A stretch of DNA of 64,000 nucleotides from NCBI RefSeq assembly GCF_016865525.2, contig NZ_CP075169.1, forward strand, positions 2,852,337 to 2,916,336. The letters are read 5' to 3'. This document shows positions 13,951 to 52,327 of this stretch, piece by piece. The number at the start of each line of letters is the position of its first letter. Within the stretch, counting starts at the first letter, position 1. Source of the DNA: Sodalis ligni (GTDB lineage: Bacteria; Pseudomonadota; Gammaproteobacteria; Enterobacterales; Enterobacteriaceae). A program made the translations under genes and the position numbers. The notes under the pieces are model-generated. The model was not told the origin of the DNA. It ran no database searches and was given only the letters and a program-made list of their open reading frames with translations.

Positions 13951-14302
13951 CACCGGCTATTGCGGCGTTATTTTTTTTACGATGACGTAATTTCTGGTAT
14001 AGGGCTATATTTCATATTATAATTTTCATCGTAAAAAGACCAATTAATTACGTGAATAATTACTAAATAAATAAATTGAATGCAAAGCATTGTTTCAAAA
14101 ATGGATATCTATGTAATAATAATATTCTCAAACTCACTTAATAGATGTGAATAATATGGATAGCATCGGTAATGCAAAAAACCATTACGCCTATATTTGG
14201 CTTATTAATGAAAAATGAGAAAACGGGAAACTTTCTGTAATAACGGAAAATATTCGGCTAGCAAAGACTCAAATGGAATGGCAATGATATTAAGGAGCGT
14301 TG
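13951..14302. other. AT-rich intergenic region before the toxin-like gene
   Basis: About 350 bases of strongly AT-rich DNA. It would hold the promoter of the toxin-like gene. No palindromes or coding frame stand out. The composition shift relative to the efflux operon fits horizontally acquired DNA. Confidence 0.5.
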
Positions 14303-15352
14303 ATGAATTCATTGAATATGCCGGTTTGGAAAAAATATTCGGAAATTGAACAACAGCTGTTATCCAATGATATGTCGCCACAAGAGCAGCGGGAAACGGA
14401 GCTATTGTTCGGCGTACTGCGGCATGCGCGCAATGAGCCCCGGCGGCGAATCGCGTCCTCGGCCCGTGATACCGCCGTCAGTGGCAAGGGCATCTTTATG
14501 GGCTTGCTTTATGCCGGCGGCCTGCTGGGACGGATGGGCCGGGTTTCCGGGGCATGGCCATCCATTGCCGGAAAAGAAAACGGTTCGGGCGGGTTAATGA
14601 ACCCGACGACGGAGCCGATGGCGGAACATGGCCCCTATAACGCCTGGAGCGGCCTGCACAAGGACATTGATGGTCCCGGCCCGGTAATAGCGGCTCCTGC
14701 AGCCGCCGCGGCGTACCGGGAGCGTCGCGAAACGGCGCGAGGGCATCGCGATCCCGCGCCGGATGTGACGCGGCAGAATAATCATATCGCCCGATTACTG
14801 AATTTGACGACGGCAGCCGGCCACGGCGAGGCACAGAATCGTTCCGAGCCGGACATTCCTTATATACTGGTGAAACGCGCGGCGGGATCTCTTGCGGGCA
14901 GACCTGAAGGGTTGGCCAAAATGGCCTTTACCTTATTACAGGGGTCCGGTCTATATGGCGCTTCTCCCGGCGAAAAAATGACGCAAAACGTCATGCATAA
15001 AATCGTTAATGATTGGAGCATGAATAATTTGTTCGGCTCCTCCCTTGAAACATTTGTGGTGCGGCAAATGGCGGATGTCATTGCCGCACAAGTTAACGGC
15101 CACCGGCAAACCATCATCGCTTTTGATATCAAAACCTGCCGTGACGCGGTATTTAAAAAGCTCTTGCCGTTACAGGACGTTGGAACAGAGGAGGATGGCA
15201 AGAGCAATCCGGCTTATCAATATGTGCTCGACAAGATTATTGCCCCGTCGCTGCCCACGCTGTTTTTGCCGGAGGCGATAGCATGGAAATGGGCACTCTG
15301 GACTGGTGCTATCTGCATATCGGACTCGCTTTTGCCGCCAAAAACGCGGTAG
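14303..15352 (+). pseudogene. N-terminal part of a large secreted toxin/effector-like protein
   Basis: A 349-residue frame starting at ATG 14303 with TAAGGAG five bases upstream. I do not recognise a named domain. It is rich in charged residues and has a Gly/Ala hydrophobic patch near residues 55-75. It ends out of frame: the last ~20 residues after 'FLPEAIAWKW' look random. The next frame (from 15283) continues naturally as 'GTLDWCYLHIGLAFAAKN' if one G is restored near 15292-15294. I therefore read it as the first third of one ~1,240-residue protein whose remaining parts follow at 15283-17544 and 17514-18025. Confidence 0.6.
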
Positions 15353-17544
15353 ACATCGGCGATATGGCCCTGCGGGACGTCATTGAAATCGGCTGTTCAA
15401 TATCGGCCATGCTAATGATGGGTTCATTGCCGGCCGGAGTGATAGAACTTTTTGGCTTCCCGGCGGTGCTGCATTATCTCAAATCAGGTCTTGATAAAGA
15501 TAAAATCGCCGACCTGCTTATTGATTGGCGAGATGAAGACATTAAGCAGATAGTGCTGCAGCACTTTTTTTCCGCGGGGGAAACCAGGGAATATGCGGTT
15601 AATCCATTCAGGCAATTCGGCAAAGCTATCAGCGGCTATAAATCGCGCACGGAACTGGCCAAGGAGATATTGACAAAGCTCTGTGGCGAGCTGAAGCCGG
15701 AGGAATTTACGACCTTGGTGGAAAATTATAAAACCAACGCGAAAGATTATCATTGTCCCTCCGCGCTACACCACAACGGGCACCACCCCTCAATTTGTCT
15801 GCCGGATCTCAATCAGGCCTTTGATCAACAAAATGAAGTTATTACCGCGAAATTTGCCGTTATCGATCGGCTAATGATGTTGGATGTCATGGCGCAACTC
15901 TCCGAGGATGAGAAGCAATTTCTTATCATGTCGACGATCAGGACGGCAGGAGCGGATTTCTCACGGCTGAATTATCTGACCGGCTTGCCGGAGGAATATT
16001 TTATCAACGGAGCGAAACCGGCGGTACAGCTTTTGCCGGGCATCGACCTCTTTTTGGCCTTCACGGCGAAAGCGGAGCATATCTTTGCCCTCGGTCGCGA
16101 TGAGTCGGGCTATTGGCTCAAACGCATCGATCGGCGGCTGGAAAACTATTTTCCGCTGATGGAGAAGAATGTGGCGCAAGAGTATCAATCCTATCGACTT
16201 AACATTTATTCCAGCGAGGGAACAGCGGGTGTTTATAAGACCGCGGGTAAAGACGTGGATGCTCTCTGTGAAGCCCTTGTTGCGCTGCACGGTAAAAAGC
16301 TGTCAACGCAGCTTTATATCCGGGGTTATGAAGAGACCACACGTGAAGCCTTCAATCATTTCATGCTGTCATTTATTCCTTTTTATCACTGTGCCGCCTG
16401 GGACCCCCACAGGCGGGAACAGGCGTTGATATCGTGCGTAACGGACAGCCTCAATCTGGTGCCGCTGGCCGGCCAGGTCGCGGGCCAGTCCATGCGCATT
16501 CTACTGAAAGCGGGGCTGGGCGGCGGGGCTTCCCTGCGCGCGGGAGCGGCGAGTTTAAAGGCCGGTTCTACATTGGGTGGCGCCTTAAGCACCGCCACGC
16601 GGACGTTTGTCGAGCTTGCCCTGGTTTCGGCGTCGGAAGAGCTGGACCGCAGGATGCTGACTGATTTGCTGCTGGTGCTGGCCCGGGCCTTCGATCCCGG
16701 CATCGAGGCGGCAGGCATGCTGGGCCAGGCTGCGTTCCGCCAGACGCAACAAGCTATCAGGCTATTGCGTAACCATAGCCCGTCCATGGAAAAGTTTTTT
16801 TTGAAAATGGGCCATGCCGCACCGGCTGATAAGCTGCCTGTCGGCCCGGAGGGGTATACAACCGCTCGTCTGGCGGGCTTAAATGATGATATTCCCATCG
16901 TGATGCTGGGGGGTGACCGGTATCTTGGCCAGCCTGTGTACGCCAGGATAAGTCCCCATACCGGCGACGTTATCGGCAGAAAGTATACTTTATCCGCAGA
17001 TAATCAATTGGCGGCCATCCCCATGCCGGCGGCAGTGCGCTTGAGGAATATTTTATCTCATGGATTAAGCGGGCGGGGCGCCTCGGCGGCGGCCAGGGTT
17101 TGGCAACAGCAGCAAAGCATAGACACCCTGTCCCAGGTGCATCTGAACGGTGTGGAATGCATAGCGCATATATCGCGGTACGGCGAGCCGGGGGGCGAAC
17201 ATTTGCTGTTTCCCGAGCAGGGCATTCCGTTGGCTCAGGAATCGCTGGATATAGACGCTTATGTGCGAATGGTGAAGGCATTGCCTGCGAGGGAGAGGAT
17301 GGCATTGCGTTTTTGGACATGGCACAACGAAGACAGTATTAGTTATATTGAGGGTTCAATGACGATTGAACTGACGGGGAATATGCCCTCCAAGAAAAGG
17401 ATAAATGAAAATCTCTGGCACGACATCCCAGTAAACGATTGGCAATTTTCCGACAAACACAGTTATTTATCTATGGTTGACTTAATTAAACGTTCGCTCC
17501 CCGGCAATCAGGAAATTATCTGGGTATGGGGCAATATCCTTTAG
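15283..17544 (+). pseudogene. Central part of the large toxin/effector-like protein
   Basis: A 753-residue frame overlapping the previous one by 70 bases. The overlap is the signature of a one-base deletion rather than of two genes. The middle contains hydrophobic, Gly/Ala-rich stretches ('DSLNLVPLAGQVAGQSM', ~400-420 and onwards) and the phrase 'SFIPFYHC', an arrangement that reminds me of membrane-inserting segments in multidomain enterobacterial and Pseudomonas toxins. That is a resemblance, not an assignment. Near 17512 the natural frame shifts again: from 17514 the other frame reads 'NYLGMGQYPLGFTIPWGES', leading into the ADP-ribosyltransferase-like end. Confidence 0.6.
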
Positions 17545-26824: not shown

Positions 26825-29122
26825 ATGACGAATCGAGTCCAACAGCTGAAAAGCGCAATGCTGGCCCATCCCCGCGAAATTTCGCTGGAGAGGGCATTGC
26901 TCTATACCGCCAGCCATCGACAAACGGCAGGTGAGCCGGTGTTAATGCGTCGCGCCAAGGCAACCGCCTATATTCTTGATAATGTTGATATTGAAATTCG
27001 TGATGGCGAATTGATTGCCGGCAACCGCACCGTAAAACCGCGGTCCGGAATTATCTCTCCGGAAATGGATCCTTATTGGCTGCTTAACGAGCTGGATCAA
27101 TTTTCCTCTCGCCCTCAGGATCGTTTTGACATCAGTGACGAAGATAAACAGATTTATCGCGAGCAGCTTTATCCTTATTGGGTAACGCGATCGATGAAAG
27201 ACTTTATTAATGGTCAGATGAGCGACGAGGTTAACGCTGCCGTCAGTACGCAGATTTTCAGCATAAACCAGACCGATAAAGGCCAGGGCCATATTATTAT
27301 TGATTATCCGCACCTGTTGAATAACGGCCTGGCGAAGCTTATTGCCGAGATGAAAAGCCGCTGCGCCGAGCATCAGGATAACGTCTTCTTTCAGGCCGGC
27401 TTGCTATTGCTGGAAGCATCACAGCGACGTATTTGGCGTTATGCCGCGTTGGCCGCCAAATTGGCGAAAGGGTCCACAAACGATAGCCGCCGTAAGGAAT
27501 TGCGGTCGATTGCGGATATTTCCCGTCATAATGCCCAGTATCGCCCGGAAGATTTCCGGCAGGCCTGTCAGTTGTTTTGGTACATGAACGTAATATTGCA
27601 ATATGAATCTAACGCCAGCTCTTTATCACTGGGGCGTTTTGACCAATACATGCTGCCATTTTACCAGTCCTCTTTGAGCCGTGGCCACAGTCCGGCGTTG
27701 CTAAAAGAGTTGCTGGAATCACTGTGGGTAAAATGTAATGACGTAGTATTGTTGCGTTCAGCCGGCAGCGCCCGCTATTTTGCCGGGTTCCCAACGGGTT
27801 ATACCGTGATATTAGGCGGCTTGACGGAAAATGGCCGCAGCGCGGTGAATATGCTCTCTTTCCTGTGTCTTGACGCCTATCAAACCGTTCAGCTTCCTCA
27901 GCCGAATATCGGCGTACGGGTAAATGAATTAATCGATCGTCCGTTCTTGCTGAAAACGGCGGAAACCATCCGGCTGGGAACCGGCATTCCGCAGATCTTT
28001 AATGATGAAGTGGTGGTGCCCGCGTTCCTGAATCGGGGCGTCTCACTAGAGGATGCTCGCGATTATGCGGTGGTAGGCTGCGTCGAGCTTTCTATTCCCG
28101 GCAGAACCTACGGTTTGCATGATATTGCCATGTTCAATCTGCTTAAAGTCATGGAGATTGTCTTGCTGGAAAATGAGGGCAGCGCGGTTATCACCTGGGA
28201 CAGCCTGCTAAGGCAGATACGCGATAAGATTCGCCACTATATCAAGCTGATGGTGGAAGGCAGCAATATTTGCGATATCGGCCACCGCGACCGGGCGCCG
28301 GTGCCGCTGCTTTCTTCGTTTATCAGCGATTGCATGGCGAAGGGCAAGGATATAACCGAAGGCGGCGCGCGCTATAATTTCTCGGGTGTCCAGGGCATTG
28401 GCATCGCTAATCTCAGCGATTCGTTACACGCCTTGAAAGGTATGGTATTTGATCAACAGCGTCTGAGCTTTGATGAGCTTCTGGCGGTGCTGAAAGCGAA
28501 TTTTGCCACTGCGGACGGGAAAAATATCCGGGCCCGGCTGATTAACCGCTTTGAGAAATACGGCAATGATATTGACGAGGTGGATAATATCAGCGCTGAT
28601 TTACTGCGCTTCTATTGCAAAGAAGTCGAAACCTGGACCAACCCCCGCGGCGGGCATTTCTCGCCGGGGTCTTATACCGTATCCGCCCATATACCCTTGG
28701 GTGCGGTGGTCGGGGCAACGCCGGACGGACGTCTTGCGGGTGAACAGCTGGCCGACGGCGGGCTATCGCCGATGCTGGGGCAGGACAGCAATGGACCTAC
28801 GGCAGTATTAAAATCAGTCAGTAAACTGGACAACTATTTGCTGTCGAACGGTACGCTGTTAAATGTGAAATTTACCCCGGCTACGCTTGCGGGCGACGGC
28901 GGGCTTAATAAACTCAGCGACTTTTTGCACGCCTTTACCAAACTGAAACTGCAGCATATCCAGTTTAACGTGGTGAATGCCCAAACGTTGCGGGAAGCAC
29001 AGCAGCGTCCGCAGGATTTTGCCGGCCTGGTGGTTCGCGTTGCCGGTTATAGCGCCTTCTTTGTGGAGTTGTCGAGGGAGATTCAGGATGACATTATCCG
29101 CCGCACGGCGCATCAATTGTAA
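26825..29122 (+). CDS. pflD: Glycyl-radical enzyme, PflD-type (formate C-acetyltransferase 2 homologue)
   Basis: Oxygen-sensitive glycyl-radical enzyme of 765 residues, the same length as E. coli PflD. The active-site cysteine is in 'VVGCVELSIPG' (~residue 420), and the radical glycine in 'VVRVAGYSAFF' near the C-terminus (~742). PflD-type proteins are annotated as formate acetyltransferase 2, but the group includes diol dehydratases; the single catalytic Cys here (no CC pair as in PflB) makes the pyruvate reaction uncertain. The coding sequence overlaps pflC by 35 bases. It is intact although both flanking genes of the locus are broken. Confidence 0.9.
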   Translation: MTNRVQQLKSAMLAHPREISLERALLYTASHRQTAGEPVLMRRAKATAYILDNVDIEIRDGELIAGNRTVKPRSGIISPEMDPYWLLNELDQFSSRPQDRFDISDEDKQIYREQLYPYWVTRSMKDFINGQMSDEVNAAVSTQIFSINQTDKGQGHIIIDYPHLLNNGLAKLIAEMKSRCAEHQDNVFFQAGLLLLEASQRRIWRYAALAAKLAKGSTNDSRRKELRSIADISRHNAQYRPEDFRQACQLFWYMNVILQYESNASSLSLGRFDQYMLPFYQSSLSRGHSPALLKELLESLWVKCNDVVLLRSAGSARYFAGFPTGYTVILGGLTENGRSAVNMLSFLCLDAYQTVQLPQPNIGVRVNELIDRPFLLKTAETIRLGTGIPQIFNDEVVVPAFLNRGVSLEDARDYAVVGCVELSIPGRTYGLHDIAMFNLLKVMEIVLLENEGSAVITWDSLLRQIRDKIRHYIKLMVEGSNICDIGHRDRAPVPLLSSFISDCMAKGKDITEGGARYNFSGVQGIGIANLSDSLHALKGMVFDQQRLSFDELLAVLKANFATADGKNIRARLINRFEKYGNDIDEVDNISADLLRFYCKEVETWTNPRGGHFSPGSYTVSAHIPLGAVVGATPDGRLAGEQLADGGLSPMLGQDSNGPTAVLKSVSKLDNYLLSNGTLLNVKFTPATLAGDGGLNKLSDFLHAFTKLKLQHIQFNVVNAQTLREAQQRPQDFAGLVVRVAGYSAFFVELSREIQDDIIRRTAHQL

Positions 29123-29966
29123 ATGCATTGACTATCCGGCCGATGAAACGGCCCGCATTTTCAATATCCAGCGCTACTCCCTTAACGATGGACAAGGGAT
29201 CCGTACGGTGATTTTTTTCAAGGGATGCCCGCATCGCTGTCCATGGTGCGCCAACCCTGAATCCATTTCCGGCAGTATTGAAACAGTGCGCCGTGAAAAA
29301 AAATGCCTCCATCGCGCTGTCTGTCTCAATGATGCGGATGAATGTCCCTCCGGCGCATTGGCGCGTATCGGCCGCGACGTGACGCTGGATGGTTTGGAAA
29401 AAGAGGCACTGAAGGATGATATCTTCTTTCGTTCATCGTCCGGCGGAGTGACGCTTTCGGGGGGAGAAGTATTAATGCAGGCTGAATTTGCCACGCGTTT
29501 TCTTGCCAGGTTGCGGCGATTGGGAATCAATACCGCGATTGAAACAGCCGGCGATGCGCCTGCCGCTCGTTTACTGCCCCTTGCGCGTCAATGTGATGAT
29601 GTGTTATTTGATCTGAAAATCATGGATGAAAAACAGTCAAAAGAAGTGCTTCATATCAATTTGCCGCGGGTGCTGAAAAATATGCGCTTACTGGTGGCTA
29701 ACGGTATCCACGTTATTCCGCGCATTCCTTTGATTCCGGGATATACAATGACGCGGGAGAATATGTGCCGGGTACTGGATGTGTTGGCGCCTTTGGCAAT
29801 AGATGAATTACATATATTGCCTTTCCACCCCTACGGAGAGCCCAAGTATTCTCTGTTAGACCGGCCATGGCAGATGAAAGGCGTGCCTGCGCCGGATGAA
29901 AGCGACATCGCTCCGTTGCGATTAATGGCTGAATCCGCCGGCTATCGTATTAAGGTCGGCGGCTAG
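29088..29966 (+). CDS. pflC: Glycyl-radical enzyme activating protein PflC (radical SAM)
   Basis: Radical-SAM activase that installs the glycyl radical on PflD. The start at ATG 29088 (GAGGGA upstream) gives 292 residues, as in E. coli PflC. The SAM cluster motif CPHRCPWC (C-x3-C-x2-C) is at residues ~44-51, and 'GGGVTLSGGE'-like SAM contacts appear as 'SSGGVTLSGGEVLMQ'. The auxiliary ferredoxin-like insert reads 'CLHRAVCLNDADECPSGA'; as I recall E. coli PflC it has 'CLHCAKC', so one cluster cysteine appears replaced by Arg here. Translation is coupled to pflD by overlap. Confidence 0.9.
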   Translation: MTLSAARRINCKCIDYPADETARIFNIQRYSLNDGQGIRTVIFFKGCPHRCPWCANPESISGSIETVRREKKCLHRAVCLNDADECPSGALARIGRDVTLDGLEKEALKDDIFFRSSSGGVTLSGGEVLMQAEFATRFLARLRRLGINTAIETAGDAPAARLLPLARQCDDVLFDLKIMDEKQSKEVLHINLPRVLKNMRLLVANGIHVIPRIPLIPGYTMTRENMCRVLDVLAPLAIDELHILPFHPYGEPKYSLLDRPWQMKGVPAPDESDIAPLRLMAESAGYRIKVGG

Positions 29967-34113: not shown

Positions 34114-35311
34114 TTAAGCCAAAAATGGCGTGATATGTTGCGTGAGAAAAAATTTGTCAGTAGCGGAATCGAAAAAACCGCCGCAGTCGTCGTGTTTAAT
34201 ACACTGAGCGCATACCGGCGGATAGGTATTTTTGAAATCGCTGATGCTTTTGGCGCAGATGTCATGTACATCGCTGTTGACCACGCAGAGCGGCAAATTA
34301 AAAATGCGGGCCTCTATGCCATAGAGCTGGAGAGTATCCACCGCTGCCGACAGAGTATCCTTGTAATCCCAAGGGTCGATTGAAAGGGCTGACCAATTAA
34401 GTTTGGCATAGCCCATATTCTCCATACCCATCAGCGCCACATGTTTGACAAAAATAAATTCTTCGCAATAAATTCCGCTAAATCCGGAAGATATTCAATC
34501 GTCTTTGATGCAATACGATACGCAATTCGATGGAAATGCCCTGCTTATAGCAGTTAAGCAATCCCGTTAGGGTTTGGTCGAAAGCTCCACTGCTTTGCAC
34601 AATATAATCATGAATGTCTGAAACATGTGCAAAAGCGGGATGCCGACCAGCAGATTGCCGCGAGCCGCCGCCGCAAGATGGGCGACATAGCTCGTAATAA
34701 AAAGCGCCCGTTAGTCAAAAGGTGGATCAAGGTCAATGGGGAGCGCTGTGCAATCTTACCGACGATGCGTATTAAGCCTTCGTTTAACATCGTTGGCTCG
34801 CCGCCGGTAATACATAGCGTCTCGGGCAAATGGTCATCATCCAGCAGATCTATCGTGGCCGCAACGCTTGCTTCCAACTGAAAGGATCCGCAATCCGTGC
34901 CGGTTTGGGCGGTTGCGGGCACATTATGCATAGGTTATTGCAGACTTCAGTAACCAGAAAAGCATTGTTGTGTGATGCGGTACGATAATGGCGGTGAATT
35001 CTGCCTTTGACGCTAATACTGATAATGTCTCCGTACGAGAAGACAATATTCGGTTTAACCAGAAGCACGGGAAACCGACCATTTTCCAACAGTGCAGACG
35101 CCCGGCAGTCGTCGGCCGTGCAAATCAGCGCGGCCGGGCATTTGTCCGGGAACGAAGGGAGGATGGCGTCAGCAGCCAAATAGACAATATCGCGGTTGGT
35201 CATCGGGTAGGACCCCGTGACTACTTTGCCGAATAGTTCTCGAATCAAGCCATAGGTCGATTCTGCCTGCGTAAACAAAAAACAGGTGTCAAGAGGGATG
35301 GACCGCTTCAT
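34114..35311 (-). pseudogene. hxsC: His-Xaa-Ser system radical SAM maturase HxsC, multiply frameshifted
   Basis: Second radical-SAM enzyme of the His-Xaa-Ser cassette. Its ATG (35311) overlaps the hxsB stop (ATGA). The SAM motif is intact: 'VCNNLCIMCPQPPK' (C-x3-C-x2-C), followed in other frames by 'ETLCITGGEPTML', 'LIHLLTNGRF', 'ARGNLLVGIP', 'HDYIVQSSGAFDQTLTGLL', 'VKHVALMGMENMGYAKLNW', 'SISDFKNTYPP' and 'CAQCIKHDDCGGFF'. These match the HxsC pattern closely and in order. At least four frame changes occur (near 34925, 34690, 34640 and 34500-34460). With them restored the protein would be ~400 residues. As read, no active enzyme is made. Confidence 0.8.
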
Positions 35312-36763
35312 TGCAACCCCCATTGCAGCAATATATGCCGGGTCTGAACGTCACCGGAGGTCAATTTATTAATAATCATTTTGATGATGTTCTGGTTTTT
35401 ATAACAAAAATCGTCCTTGCCCGGCCGCCCATAAGGCGAACCAGTGACTTGGTAGCGGCGGACAGGATCGGCGCCGCAATAGGGCGCATAAGCACAGTCC
35501 GAGCAGACGGGCAAGCTATCGTTAACTCCCGCCATCGCCAATTCTTGCATTACCGGCCCCAAAACAATTCCGCCCGGGTATTCTCCTGCACATTCCCCAT
35601 CTTAAAATGCCGATCTCCGGTTTCAGCCATCATGCGGCTTTCATCGCTGGGATAAATATTGCCATCGTAGTTATATAAAGTGACGCCGAAACCGGCGCCA
35701 CAGGGTGATTGTAAATCGACAAAACCTGTCGCCCAGGGCGTGACAAGTTTCTTTACAATCAGACTGGCATAGGATTCGCGAAACGGCTGGCCGTCTTTAT
35801 TTAACTGTATGATATAGTCCAGGCATTTTTCATAGAAAGCCAAAAGGCTTCGGTCGTATAACCAATTTTGCTGAAATATTTTTGTGCAAAGCCGTAAGGA
35901 TTCAATTCGCGTATAAAGATACTGCTAAACCCATGTCGGATATATTCATCGATGATTTCTTTGTGCAGGCCGAGACTTGGGCGTGTGGTCGTCATCAGCG
36001 CGCTAACATTACCGAAGGCGTTTTTTTGTCTGATGCGATCCAGGGTAGCGATAAGCGCCTCCCAAGCGCCGGCCTGGCTAAATTTCCGATTAGCATTATG
36101 CAATGACTGCGGGCCGTCTAACGAGGTGCTAATGGAAATATTATGCTCGATCAAAAAGTTGAGATCGCCGTCATTCACTTCACATAGGTTGGTGCACAGC
36201 ACGAATTGGATCTCTTTACCCGTACTTTTTTGTTGCACCAGCTTCACAGCCCGTCGGACCAATGGCATTGTCAACGTCGATTCTCCACCCTGAAACTCCA
36301 GCGTGAGCTTGGAGGAGGGCATGGACAAGGCCATATCAATACTGCCGTCGAGCACGGCTTCGCTCATATCAAAGCGAGCGGAGTCGGACTGACAGGATTT
36401 TCTCGATGCCTGGCAGTAAACGCAGGAGTTGTTGCAGCGTACGGTCAGCACAAAAATATGCAATTGAGCAAAGTTTTCGAGAAAGGCTTTTTTGGTCTTA
36501 TATTTGGACGCCAAGAGGGGGATCGGATCTAAGGCATCGTCATCGATAATGATGTGCTTCGATCTCAATTCATAATAAAGTTTTTTATCGGTGATTTCTT
36601 TTTTAGAAACCAAGACGCTAAGCTGTTCGTCAGTTAAACAAATCCATTCGCCGTAATCAGTTGAAATAAAATACCGTTTAGCATCCAATTTGCTGAATCT
36701 GAAGGGTAACAACTTATAATGAGGTTGGTAAAAAGCCTCAGCGTTTGCGAATTTAACGCTCAT
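35308..36763 (-). pseudogene. hxsB: His-Xaa-Ser system radical SAM/SPASM maturase HxsB, two frameshifts
   Basis: Radical-SAM peptide-modifying enzyme, ~485 residues if repaired. An N-terminal recognition region ('YKLLPFRFSKLDAKRYFIST', 'GEWICLTDEQLSVL') precedes the SAM motif 'TVRCNNSCVYCQASR' (C-x3-C-x2-C, residues ~108-115) and 'LEFQGGEST'. The SPASM-type C-terminus supplies cysteines in 'SPCGAGFGVTLYNYDGNIYP' and 'LPVCSDCAYAPYCGADPVRR'. Single bases are missing in a T-run near 35838 and in a G-run near 35566. The gene overlaps its upstream neighbour by 11 bases and hxsC by 4, so the cassette is translationally coupled. Confidence 0.82.
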
Positions 36764-36982
36764 GATTGAATTTTTCTTGTATGCTGAGTATCAGCGCATT
36801 ATTGAGAAAAGTATTGATGATTACCGCGCTCTCAAGGTCGTGTGCCTTTGTGACGCTGAAATCCAGCAGCATACCTCCTCCGTTTCGGGCGGATACTGAT
36901 AAATAATCCGCAAATAAAGACGCCATTTCTTCAATGGCATGCTGGGTATAAAATCAGGATCCAGGTTAATCTGCATTGGCAT
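36753..36982 (-). pseudogene. Unrecognised small protein within the hxs cassette, frameshifted
   Basis: Between hxsD and hxsB. It starts at ATG 36982, overlapping the hxsD stop by one base (TGATG), and reads 'MPMQINLDPDFIP'. If one C is restored in the CCC run near 36951 it goes on as 'QHAIEEMASLFADYLSVSAR', 'NGGGMLLDFSVTKAHDLESA' and 'FLNNALILSIQEKFNHER', stopping at 36753 inside hxsB. That is ~77 residues. I do not recognise it. The C-terminal pattern loosely recalls the end of small HxsD-like proteins, so it may be a second HxsD-type partner. The perfect nesting between the two genes argues that it is a real component. Confidence 0.55.
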
Positions 36983-37365
36983 CATACCTGGGAAGTCAGT
37001 ATATGAAGAATATCGTCGGAAACCGCGTCGCGCACCAGCGTGGCCGCCGGCGAAAAGGCTTTTCTAACGATTTCGGCATGTATTTCTTTTGTTTCGCCGA
37101 GCACAATCTGACGCATCTGGTTTTCATGCAGCAGATCAAGAAAGTCCTGGACCGCCCGGTTGATATCGCTGGCTGGTGCTGCGGAATTTTTATTATAAAA
37201 ATTAATCGATAATTGTTTATCCGCTACTTTAGTGACGTGAATATAAAACCGGTCTGTCAATGAATAACATGTTTTCATTATTGCATTGGTCGCATAGATT
37301 TCTTTGTCTACGATGACGAAAAAATAATCGCCGAACGCATTCACACCTTTACCAATGGGCGGCAT
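36982..37365 (-). CDS. hxsD: His-Xaa-Ser system protein HxsD
   Basis: Small partner protein of the cassette, 127 residues, apparently the only uninterrupted hxs gene. The features I associate with HxsD are present: 'DKEIYATNAIMKTCYSLTDR' near the N-terminus, a beta-strand pair ('FYIHVTKVADKQLSINFYNK'), and 'AVQDFLDLLHENQMRQIVLG' followed by 'ETKEIHAEIVRKAFSPAATL'. Its role is not established; a PqqD-like substrate-presenting function for the two maturases is a reasonable guess. The stop codon overlaps the next ATG by one base. hxsA ends 48 bases upstream. Confidence 0.75.
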   Translation of the reverse strand: MPPIGKGVNAFGDYFFVIVDKEIYATNAIMKTCYSLTDRFYIHVTKVADKQLSINFYNKNSAAPASDINRAVQDFLDLLHENQMRQIVLGETKEIHAEIVRKAFSPAATLVRDAVSDDILHILTSQV

Positions 37366-37413
37366 GGTTTACTTACTCTATATATAGCCAGCATTGCTGC
37401 TGGCTAGGACCCA

Positions 37414-37730
37414 TTAGCAGGTTTTACCCGGCGTGCAAGAGTAGTGGCTCGCATGGCTCGCGTGGCTGGAATGGCTATAGTGGGCGGCGAATGCTTGCCC
37501 ATCTAACGCCGGCCGATCCAGGATAACGGCTACGCCGGTCTGCGGGTTGGTTCGGTTAGTGATGCTTTCCTGAACCCCATTGTTCACCGGCCTGGTGTCC
37601 GTTGATGCCATGGCGTTCATGCTGCCGCCTGCTAACATCCCAACAACAATCCCAGCGAGAATCGGTTTTATCTTTTGCTATTTTCAACCTCGTCTAGCGA
37701 GATTTTAGGTACGGTAGGTAATTCTTTCAT
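37414..37730 (-). pseudogene. hxsA: His-Xaa-Ser repeat precursor peptide HxsA-like, frameshifted after the leader
   Basis: Predicted substrate of the radical-SAM maturases. From ATG 37730 (AGGATT upstream) the frame encodes 'MKELPTVPKISLDEVENSK', a plausible leader, then stops. If one A is restored in the run at 37673-37676, it continues as 'IKPILAGIVVGMLAGGSMNA', a hydrophobic segment, then 'DTRPVNNGVQESITN' and a C-terminal core 'AHYSHSSHASHASHYSC' followed by 'TPGKTC'. The core has five consecutive His-x-Ser triplets framed by Ala and Cys. Total ~105 residues. Without repair the core could only be made from an internal start (e.g. 37638), losing the leader. Confidence 0.7.
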
Positions 37731-40083: not shown

Positions 40084-42585
40084 TTAATCCGTAACAATTT
40101 TAATTGAAACCAGCCCTATCCCTAATAGCCTTTTATCCCCGGACTCTCCGGATTCTTTTGGACTCTTCGGATAAGGTGGAATAATCTCAATATCCTTTGC
40201 CTTATTGACGTTGACGAAATGAAGTGTCGCTAAGCTTGGCTGTCCGTTGACGCTTATGCTTTGTTGCTGGTTACCTACAATAACGGTTATCGGCTTGCCA
40301 ATGTTCGGGCCATAGGCCCGTGCAGTGATTTCAATCGTAAAGCTGCTTGGGAGCGTCTTATCAAACGACAACCGTACTACCGGTGCTAGATTGGCATCGC
40401 TCCAACGCCCCCAGGACTCTGGGGGCGATAATCCGGAAATGCTATCAAGGAAGTCTGGCACACCTTTCTGATTAAAAGCATAGCCCTGAGCGGGGATAAG
40501 TGCTGACCCTTTCTGCGCAGGCTTCGCTAACTTCGGCAGCATGTACGTGGTAAAGTCTGGCAATAGCGTCATGCTGCCGTACGCACTCAAGTGATCGCCA
40601 TCGAAAAACATAGAGTGCCCCTCCCTCCAGACGCTGCATTCCGTACCAGGGCAAAGCACCGGGAAAGGATCCCAGACGCTGACCGACGGAAGAGCATTGA
40701 TCACCTGGCTGTAGCTGTTAAGAACTGGAGCTCGGTATTTTTGCAGCAGATCGCGTTTCATTGACATGCCGTGGGCGCACATAGGGTTATTCATATTAAA
40801 CCAATCGGTACAGCGGTAAGGTGGCGACTGGAAGATAGGTTTAGGCGCTTCAAAAACAACATGCACACCCTGCTCGCTGAATTCACGCAGTGTCTCGATC
40901 GCATAGGTAACTGAAAGCTGTCGATTAGCCTGCGCTTTGGCGCTAAAAAAACTTTGTTGATGAGATTCTGGTCCAAAATAGGCCCACTGATCGCCGAACC
41001 GTGGTAAGCGTAAAGATGCCAGAAAGAGTACATCGCCGGGTTTGACCCGATTGTGCAGCGCGCGCAAAGAGGCCTCAGCATTTGGGCGGCACTGGACATT
41101 ATCGAGATCGCGTTCAGTTTGGAAACTGATAAACGGGCAGCCCCATTGAGGTAAACATCCACCTCCAAATTATTTCTGATGGAGAACTGCTTATATAATG
41201 TCGCATAGGCTAGGGCATGGGAGTCACCGATCACATGTAATACCCTATACCTTGACGATTTCTCTTGCAGGCAGCCCTCAGGTTTGTAAACCAAAATGCT
41301 GACGCCATTATCTTCTAGCATTTTAGGCCCGGCCCGGCAGCCAGGGTCTTCAGGAGTCGCAGGCCCTCTTTCAGGGTACCAGTCTTCGGCATCCGCAGTC
41401 ACCTTGCTAAGAGATTTTATCCGACCATGCATTGAGCTCCGATGCTCCCCAATAGGCAACAGCAATAATGCATAGCCCAATGGCAATAACGACAGAATTC
41501 GATGCCTTTTGACTACCTTGTGCTGCCGCATGGGTGTTTCAATCAGGTAGTAGGATAACGACGCCAGCAACAAGGTGACCGCTAACGCTGACAACATTGT
41601 CACAGGGAGTCTAAACCGCAGGTCCATCTGAACAGTACAAATGTCGGCCAATGCCATAGATAGAGAGAGTATGATCTTTTCCAAGGAAAAGAATATAGCG
41701 GTTACTCAGCAAGGTTTTCAGCCATGGCAAACATCTTTGTTTGTACAGGCTGGATATAATACCCAACGTAGATATTACGGCAAGTATAGCGCCGGGCATC
41801 GGGAAATTAACCGGTCTCGAAATAACAAAAGAAAGCAGTAAACTAAAAATGCCGTAATACCGATAATGCCGGAGAATCTATTCTCAGTACGTTCTCCTTC
41901 CCCGTAGGACAGAGTGATTATCTGATACAGCAATACGCCGGAAGCCAATTCCCAGAAGCGTCCAGGGCTTAAAAATAGGAATTTGTTGGTTGAGTTTGTG
42001 ATTGCCAAGCAGAGAAAATAACTGATACCAATAGCCCAATTGAAAACAAAACGACGGAAGAACGCTTACCACGCTGTCTGTTTAGCCAGGCAAAAACAAG
42101 ATTGGGAAAATAAGGTAGAATTGCTCCTCTACCCTAGAGACCAGGAATGAGCGAACGGGTTAAATTCGGTTGTTGGTGCAAAGTAATCCCGACCATTCGC
42201 AGCCAAAATGAAGTTACTTAACCCCATAAAGGCAAACAATCCGGTTTTCTGATTACCGTTACTTAACCATGAACCGGGGATGAACAATGCAGAAACATAA
42301 CCTGTTACCAGCAAGCATACGATAAGTGCTGGGAAAATACGTTTGATCCTTCTTGCATAAAAAATGCCACGAAGCTTCTTATCCCTGCTCCTTTGAAATG
42401 GGTGATGGAGGCACTGACGACAAAGCCTGATATCACAAAAACACATCTACGCCGACAAAACCGCCAGGCAACCAGGATGAGTGCAAATGATAGATAATAA
42501 CAGAAACGACAGCCAAAGCGCGGAGCCCATCAATGAATGGAAAGTACTGCGACTGCTTTAGTTTTACATTGTCCAACCGCATCAT
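40084..42585 (-). pseudogene. Acyltransferase-3 / SGNH-domain protein (OafA/YrhL type), heavily frameshifted
   Basis: Membrane O-acyltransferase that would acetylate lipopolysaccharide O-antigen or another surface glycan. Fragments in three frames follow the family order: 'FIDGLRALAVVSVIIYHL' and 'PGGFVGVDVF' (42.4-42.6 kb), 'RRIKRIFPALIVCLLVTGYV' and 'FNPFAHSWSLG' (42.1-42.4), later helices (41.6-42.0), then the periplasmic SGNH part with 'HVIGDSHALAYATLY' (Ser in GDSH) and 'FDGDHLSAYG' (Asp-x-x-His) at 40.1-41.3 kb, ending intact at 40084. At least five frame breaks are needed to join them. It is non-functional as read. Confidence 0.75.
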
Positions 42586-50698: not shown

Positions 50699-50756
50699 GA
50701 TTGCCTGCTTGCTAAACCCGTCGGTTCACAGATTTGTGGCGCGGGAGGAGAGAATC

Positions 50757-52327
50757 ATGAGTCAGAGTGTTGAAAAAACCAAAGCCTGTTACCCGCTGTT
50801 TGAAGAGGCGGAATATCAGGCGCTGTTCACCAGCAAACGCGACCTGGAAGAAGCTCACGGCGAAGCCCGGGTGAAAGAGGTCTTTGCGTGGACCACCACG
50901 CCGGAATACCAGGAGCTGAACTTTAAACGGGAAGCCCTGACCATCGATCCGGCCAAAGCCTGTCAGCCGCTGGGGGCGGTGCTCTGTTCCCTGGGGTTTG
51001 CCAAGACGCTGCCGTATGTGCACGGTTCCCAAGGCTGCGTGGCGTATTTCCGCACCTATTTCAACCGGCATTTCAAGGAGCCGGTGGCCTGTGTTTCCGA
51101 TTCCATGACCGAGGACGCGGCGGTGTTCGGCGGCAACAAGAATATGAATGATGGCCTGCAGAACGCTTCCGCGCTCTACAAACCGGAGGTTATCGCCGTC
51201 TCCACTACCTGTATGGCGGAAGTCATAGGCGACGATATCAGCGCCTTTATCGCCAACGCCAAAAAAGACGGTTTTGTGGACAGCAAGATAGCGGTGCCCT
51301 TTGCCCATACCCCGAGCTTTATCGGCAGCCACATTACCGGCTGGGATAATATGTTCGAAGGATTCGCCCGGGAATTCACCGACAAGAGCGCGGGCCGGGA
51401 TTACCAGCCGGGCCGCAACGGCAAGATCAATCTGGTGACCGGCTTTGAAACCTACCTGGGTAATTACCGGGTTATCAAGCGCATGATGGAACAGATGGGG
51501 ATCGGCTACAGCCTGCTGTCCGATCCCTCCGAGGTACTGGATACCCCGGCGGACGGAGAATACCGCATGTACGCCGGCGGCACCACGCAGGAAGAGATGC
51601 GCGACGCCCCCAACGCCATCGATACCTTGCTGCTGCAGCCCTGGCATCTGCTGAAAACCAAAAAAGTGGTGCAGGAAGAGTGGCAGCAGCCGGCGACCCC
51701 GGTCAGCATCCCCATGGGATTGAACGCCACCGACCGGTTTTTGATGACCGTCAGCGAACTCACCGGCAAACCCATTCCCGCTGCCCTTACGCTGGAGCGG
51801 GGGCGGCTGGTGGATATGATGCTCGATTCCCATACCTGGCTGCACGGCAAAGCTATGGCCTGTACGGCGATCCGGATTTTGTCATGGGCATGACCCAAAT
51901 GCTGCTTGAACTGGGGTGTGAACCGACGGTTATCCTGTGCCATAACGCCAACAAGCGCTGGCAGAAAGCCATGAAAAAAATCCTGGCGGATTCCCCTTAC
52001 GGCCAGGAGAGCGAAGTCTACATCAACTGCGACCTGTGGCACTTCCGTTCACTGATGTTTACCCGTAAACCGGATTTCATGATCGGCAACTCCTACGGCA
52101 AATTTATTCAGCGCGATACGCTGGCGAAGGGTGAGCAGTTTGAGGTCCCGCTGATTCGCATCGGCTTCCCGATCTTTGACCGCCACCATTTGCACCGCCT
52201 TTCCACCTGGGGCTATGAAGGCGCCATGACGGTATTGACCACCTTGGTGAACGCTTCGCTGGAAAAACTGGATCGCGACACCATGAAACTGGGCAAAACC
52301 GATTACAGCTACGATCTGATTCGCTAA
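50757..52327 (+). pseudogene. nifK: Nitrogenase molybdenum-iron protein beta chain NifK, one-base frameshift
   Basis: Beta subunit of dinitrogenase. ATG 50757 ('MSQSVEKTKACYPLF', GGGAGGAG upstream) opens a frame with the P-cluster cysteines of 'AKACQPLGA' (~69), 'HGSQGCVAYF' (~94) and 'STTCMAEVIGDD'. At 51849-51851 the frame leaves the family: it reads 'HTWLHGKAMACTAIR' and stops at 51893 after ~378 residues. Adding one A (GGCAAA to GGCAAAA) restores 'HTWLHGKSYGLYGDPDF' and a perfect NifK to 52327, ~523 residues. The lost 158 residues are essential for the fold and heterotetramer. The surrounding coding sequence is otherwise under clear constraint. Confidence 0.9.

Follow-up and report, generated by a model that had tools for sequence, protein, structure and literature searches.

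Four of the five genes of a radical SAM peptide-maturation cassette in Sodalis ligni do not read through in a single frame, which raises the question of whether the locus is being lost or has been misread. The cassette belongs to the His-Xaa-Ser (hxs) system and lies on the minus strand at positions 34114-37730 of a stretch of 64,000 nucleotides (the window), which is part of one 6.44 Mb contig; its gene order is precursor, HxsD, a small protein, HxsB and HxsC. The cassette itself is real. Most probably it represents a five-gene member of the hxs system, of a sub-type with an additional HxsD-like gene, in which the frame breaks are errors in the assembly consensus.

The hxs system, which was reportedly described by Haft and Basu in 2011 by comparative genomics (a study that PMC9062424 cites), and an HxsD-like family in NCBIfam are already known, and this locus is a further member of the system. 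For the identification of its components the window was searched against NCBIfam, with each open-frame piece of the broken genes queried separately. HxsD exceeded the cut-off of TIGR03976 (62.5 bits; cut-off, 50). Three pieces of HxsB aligned to positions 1-291, 291-384 and 387-465 of the 466 positions of TIGR03978 (324.4, 136.1 and 79.9 bits), and three pieces of HxsC to positions 3-50, 58-112 and 200-291 of the 292 positions of TIGR03977 (54.9, 44.6 and 115.7 bits). Singly, none of them reached the respective cut-off (370 and 267.9 bits); jointly, they span most of the two models. A precursor piece scored just below the cut-off of the HxsA2 model NF038296 (42.7 bits; cut-off, 48), and the two pieces of the small gene matched no family in this search. 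The best NCBIfam E-values for pieces of the cassette (9e-11 to 1e-96) lie well beyond what chance would give, and in a Pfam scan a single match exceeded its cut-off, that of the radical SAM domain to the first piece of HxsB.

Besides the assignment to the hxs system, most of a preliminary description of the locus was confirmed. The five minus-strand genes are in contact where they had been placed, with one base shared by the HxsD stop and the ATG of the small gene (at 36982), an overlap of 11 bases between the small gene and HxsB (36753-36763), and one of 4 bases between HxsB and HxsC (35308-35311). The five H-x-S triplets of the precursor can be read directly in the sequence (37414-37638), and both radical SAM enzymes contain the motif C-x3-C-x2-C (CNNSCVYC in HxsB, CNNLCIMC in HxsC). 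HxsD can be read in one open frame, whereas the coding sequences of the precursor, the small protein, HxsB and HxsC are each spread over two or more frames, so that four of the five genes are indeed frameshifted.

The same description had read the cassette as recently decayed, a snapshot of its loss, and this part was not supported. Two junctions in HxsB and five in HxsC were measured against intact proteins; the precursor and the small gene have one junction each. The HxsB pieces are identical at 480 of 485 residues to an intact public HxsB (P0002, eight member sequences), and the HxsC pieces at 395 of 401 residues to an intact public HxsC (P0133, five members). Each of the seven junctions in these two genes amounts to a net loss, of 4 bases in one case and of a single base in the other six, and the one junction in the precursor and the one in the small gene shift in the same direction, as judged by a frame count from the open reading frames (ORFs). 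Mismatched residues number five in HxsB and six in HxsC in this protein-level comparison, with some of these 11 located at the joints. A recent pseudogene would be expected to show substitutions well above indels, and gains as well as losses; the count here is 11 mismatches against seven junctions, all losses. Ordinary mutation produces roughly ten substitutions per small indel, so decay should have left substitutions far in excess of indels; what is observed looks more like consensus error.

Other genes of the assembly were used as a yardstick, by comparing 184 kb of the Sodalis genome with 160 kb of a contig of a sister genome (5.9 Mb; 87% identical across the nif region). Of 121 reference ORFs, 45 were kept (51,780 bases; minimum identity and minimum aligned share of the length, 80% each), some of which are shadow frames of a true gene. 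Clean single-base gaps were found in ten of the 45; a base is missing from the Sodalis assembly 18 times and extra once, and 11 of the 18 missing bases fall in runs of three or more. Outside the window, an rnfD-like gene (contig positions 2949778-2950101; L138) is short of a single base at eight places within some 320 bases; its divergence is 8.1%, with 74% of the mismatches on one codon position, and its substitutions look constrained. Its nifL-like and rnfC-like neighbours are missing one base each (names of neighbouring genes, here and below, were assigned from sequence).

We regard consensus error, rather than decay, as the probable origin of the breaks, because the junctions are all losses, there are few substitutions, and other genes show the same one-way losses. 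Several observations weigh against this. No break is seen in rpoB and rpoC (about 8 kb), and the nif genes have, in comparison with the sister species, one frame-breaking gap only, in nifK (window positions 50709-52327, with a frame step near 51850 that splits the gene). The nine hxs junctions lie within about 3.3 kb, far denser than the 18 losses in 51.8 kb; with rpoB and rpoC whole and nif nearly so, such error must have struck the assembly unevenly. A slight shift towards what decay would produce is also present, in that the ten hit ORFs are 11.9% divergent versus 11.1% in the 35 clean ones, with a codon-position share of 61.7% versus 64.0%; the two most divergent hit ORFs (approximately 16%) account for much of the difference in divergence. 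The cassette might have truly decayed in this strain, having fallen out of use and then suffered small deletions in a burst: the breaks fall in dispensable-looking genes (hxs, nifK, nifL-like, rnfD-like and hut-like), with rpoB, rpoC and the other compared nif genes whole, and Sodalis insect symbionts are pseudogene-rich according to a passage of PMC8226273. We nevertheless consider such decay unlikely, given that near-identical HxsB and HxsC proteins are intact in public records, that seven of seven junctions are losses with few substitutions nearby, that losses exceed gains 18 to 1 in the compared genes, and that broken and clean genes are nearly equal in divergence and codon-position bias. 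Far less probable still is that the breaks are used biologically, through phase variation or programmed frameshifting. The breaks do affect several genes of the same unit, and homopolymer runs of at least five bases are somewhat more frequent in the hxs genes than in the nif genes (7.2 versus 5.0 per kb); however, a joint read-through of nine junctions in four genes would be hard to achieve, and two close relatives as well as the near-identical proteins are unbroken. With consensus error as the preferred reading, the claimed case of natural-product gene loss is removed, and probably arises from assembly.

The first HxsB piece was compared with 295 genomes of the family and matched ten at an E-value of 1e-30 or better: the window's own genome, two at 66-67% identity, and seven distant ones at 27-29%. 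The two close relatives, Pluralibacter gergoviae and Buttiauxella noackiae (loci L016 and L017), each have all five genes in open frame, among them the small gene, and an intact relative lacking the small peptide gene did not appear. The precursor shares 52% identity with the copy in L016 and 57% with that in L017, and the small gene is 50% identical to the intact L016 copy across 66 residues. No match to the cassette DNA was found in five other genomes of the genus. The L016 and L017 cassettes sit between carboxypeptidase-like and acid-shock-like genes, beside a trypsin-like protease.

The small protein, left unnamed in the preliminary description, can be placed through its relatives. A survey of hxs loci confirmed 545 stretches, of which 80 loci were kept for analysis; the small protein is present in 13 of the 80, always between hxsD and hxsB. 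An NCBIfam scan of 12 of the 13 proteins returned NF038315 ('HxsD-like protein') for all 12 and the HxsD model for seven. A profile of the 13 small proteins, searched against 9247 ORFs, placed 54 HxsD proteins ahead of the first other ORF (E 0.48), 18 of them at an E-value of 0.001 or better; the reverse profile, built from single-gene HxsD proteins, placed all 13 small proteins ahead of any other ORF (E 0.53), five of them at 0.001 or better. In one hhalign comparison, the small protein and HxsD matched with 96.9% probability (E 1.7e-10). As judged by these comparisons, the relatives of the small protein are homologous to HxsD. The predicted models of the window's HxsD (pLDDT 91) and of the Pluralibacter HxsD-like protein (pLDDT 94) have in common a strand, a helix, two strands and a long helix, in this order, to which the HxsD model adds one strand in front and another helix behind. 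That the gene might instead encode a second precursor or an unrelated peptide would fit its shortness, the missing family match of its pieces, and a search of the window's own genome with NF038315 that gave no match. We consider this very improbable, in view of the homology of its relatives to HxsD in profile and hhalign comparisons, their uniform match to NF038315, the confident model of the L029 copy with its elements ordered as in HxsD, and the lack of an H-x-S repeat in the small protein.

An ORF with clustered H-x-S triplets, i.e. a precursor, was found in 76 of the 80 loci. The precursor of the window has the C-terminal sequence AHYSHSSHASHASHYSCTPGKTC, with its five H-x-S triplets and a CTPGKTC end, and contains a signal-peptide-like hydrophobic segment ending in AMA; a CTPGxTC end also occurs in four Enterobacterales precursors and one of Photobacterium. 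Export of the precursor is likely, as judged by a rule of our own making rather than a trained predictor (positively charged start, hydrophobic segment and small-x-small motif), which applied to 67 of the 76 precursors but to one HxsD protein in 80 and, among 1520 shuffled precursors, to 116. When seven of the longer precursors were tested, five proved to contain the peptidoglycan-binding domain PF01471, and the mature peptide is therefore probably a component of the cell envelope.

The additional gene is accompanied by a particular precursor start, [LMFIV]P[KRS][VLIS]xK (LPxVxK-type), located as a rule ahead of the hydrophobic segment. It was found in all 13 precursors of loci with the HxsD-like gene and in one of 63 without it (76 loci; Fisher p 9e-14, with kinship ignored and the four loci without a detected precursor excluded); the start in the window, MKELPTVPK, is a looser match. 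The motif had first been noticed in the same loci as were counted, so further, held-out loci were examined. The viral contig L143, which has an HxsD-like gene, encodes a precursor with the start MLKLPKVIK and thus the motif; among held-out loci without the gene, the motif is missing in 14 viral precursors (by script) and in the single-HxsD locus L159 (by eye). In a tree of HxsB (80 rows), well-supported branches force at least three gains or losses of the HxsD-like gene, and the motif accompanies the gene on each side of these changes. Within the main group bearing the gene, L042, L046 and L093 lack both gene and motif, an apparent joint loss.

The association of motif and gene across at least three changes suggests that HxsD and the HxsD-like protein form a pair that recognizes the LPxVxK-type leader. 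We tentatively propose, at somewhat less than even chances, that HxsD and its short paralogue constitute a heterodimeric leader module, other than a RiPP recognition element (RRE), which would read LPxVxK ahead of the export signal, and that module and motif were gained or lost jointly at least three times, with two kinds of hxs system differing in substrate recognition as the consequence. The proposed split of the hxs system, which has received little study, with a distinct precursor N-terminal motif in the loci with an HxsD-like gene, points to a candidate part for substrate binding. No report of a link between the leader motif and the HxsD-like gene was found in the literature searched, in which the motif itself was not a query.

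In this sub-type, the HxsD/HxsD-like pair would hold the precursor by its N-terminal motif, and cytoplasmic modification of the H-x-S triplets is predicted to be the task of HxsB and HxsC; the His-Xaa-Ser motif putatively depends on HxsB and HxsC according to a passage of PMC9062424. The modified peptide would then leave by the Sec route and be cleaved after an AxA motif, and a predicted disulfide within CTPGxTC would close its C-terminus. The coordinates of the five genes are collected in Table 1.

Table 1. Genes of the hxs cassette, in window coordinates
Gene product	Position	Strand	Remarks
HxsA2-like precursor	37414..37730	-	LPTVPK stretch N-terminal; one frame step near 37675
HxsD	36982..37365	-	Single open frame, 127 aa; match to TIGR03976
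Small HxsD-like protein	36753..36982	-	One frame step near 36953; relatives match NF038315
HxsB, radical SAM maturase, cysteine-rich C-terminal part	35308..36763	-	Frame steps near 35843 and 35559
HxsC, second radical SAM maturase	34114..35311	-	Five frame steps between 34883 and 34452

The neighbours of the cassette in the window are SnoaL-like and LysR-type genes. Elsewhere in the window, overlapping same-strand ORF pairs at 40084-41684 and 14300-17544 step in the lost-base direction (frame count), and a glycyl-radical-enzyme-like gene is followed by an overlapping activase-like radical SAM gene at 26825-29966 (ORF reading). Relatives of HxsB were found on a Leptospira phage and a second phage record (KF114877.1, MT837156.1), on 22 plasmid records, seven of them predicted to be conjugative, and on 16 IMG/VR contigs. 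From these occurrences on phages, plasmids and viral contigs, the hxs system seems to be mobile. Five IMG/VR contigs (L153, L154, L156, L157 and L158) encode relatives of HxsB and HxsC, with no HxsD found, and the precursors of the four tested (L153, L156, L157 and L158) have a peptidoglycan-binding domain near the C-terminus.

Compared with the known hxs system (HxsA/A2, TIGR03979/NF038296, with HxsB, HxsC and HxsD), the locus has all four components in one same-strand unit, and differs in its four frame-broken genes, in a precursor just below the HxsA2 cut-off, and in the CTPGKTC end. With NF038315 it shares the position of the small gene between hxsD and hxsB, and all 12 relatives scanned match the family; it differs in that the window's own pieces are without any match, and the L029 copy is below the cut-off (21.1 bits; cut-off, 41). 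The proposed role, a small protein binding the leader of a modified peptide, is that of the PqqD-like RRE. The RRE fold is a winged helix, whereas the predicted models of HxsD and the HxsD-like protein are ordered strand-helix-strand-strand-helix. Fold searches returned no clear relative and no RRE-named entry among the matches listed, although weak or absent hits are no evidence against a relationship. The literature searched yielded no experimental study of Hxs proteins, and we know of no solved Hxs product. For the chemistry, three-residue cyclophane (triceptide) radical SAM/SPASM enzymes offer an analogy, on which we would hazard the guess, doubtful as it is, of a cross-link from His to the side chain of residue 3 within each H-x-S triplet. 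Both systems combine a SPASM-type radical SAM enzyme with a repeated substrate motif of a ring-bearing residue followed by two others; the hxs system differs from the triceptide systems in having two radical SAM enzymes in one unit.

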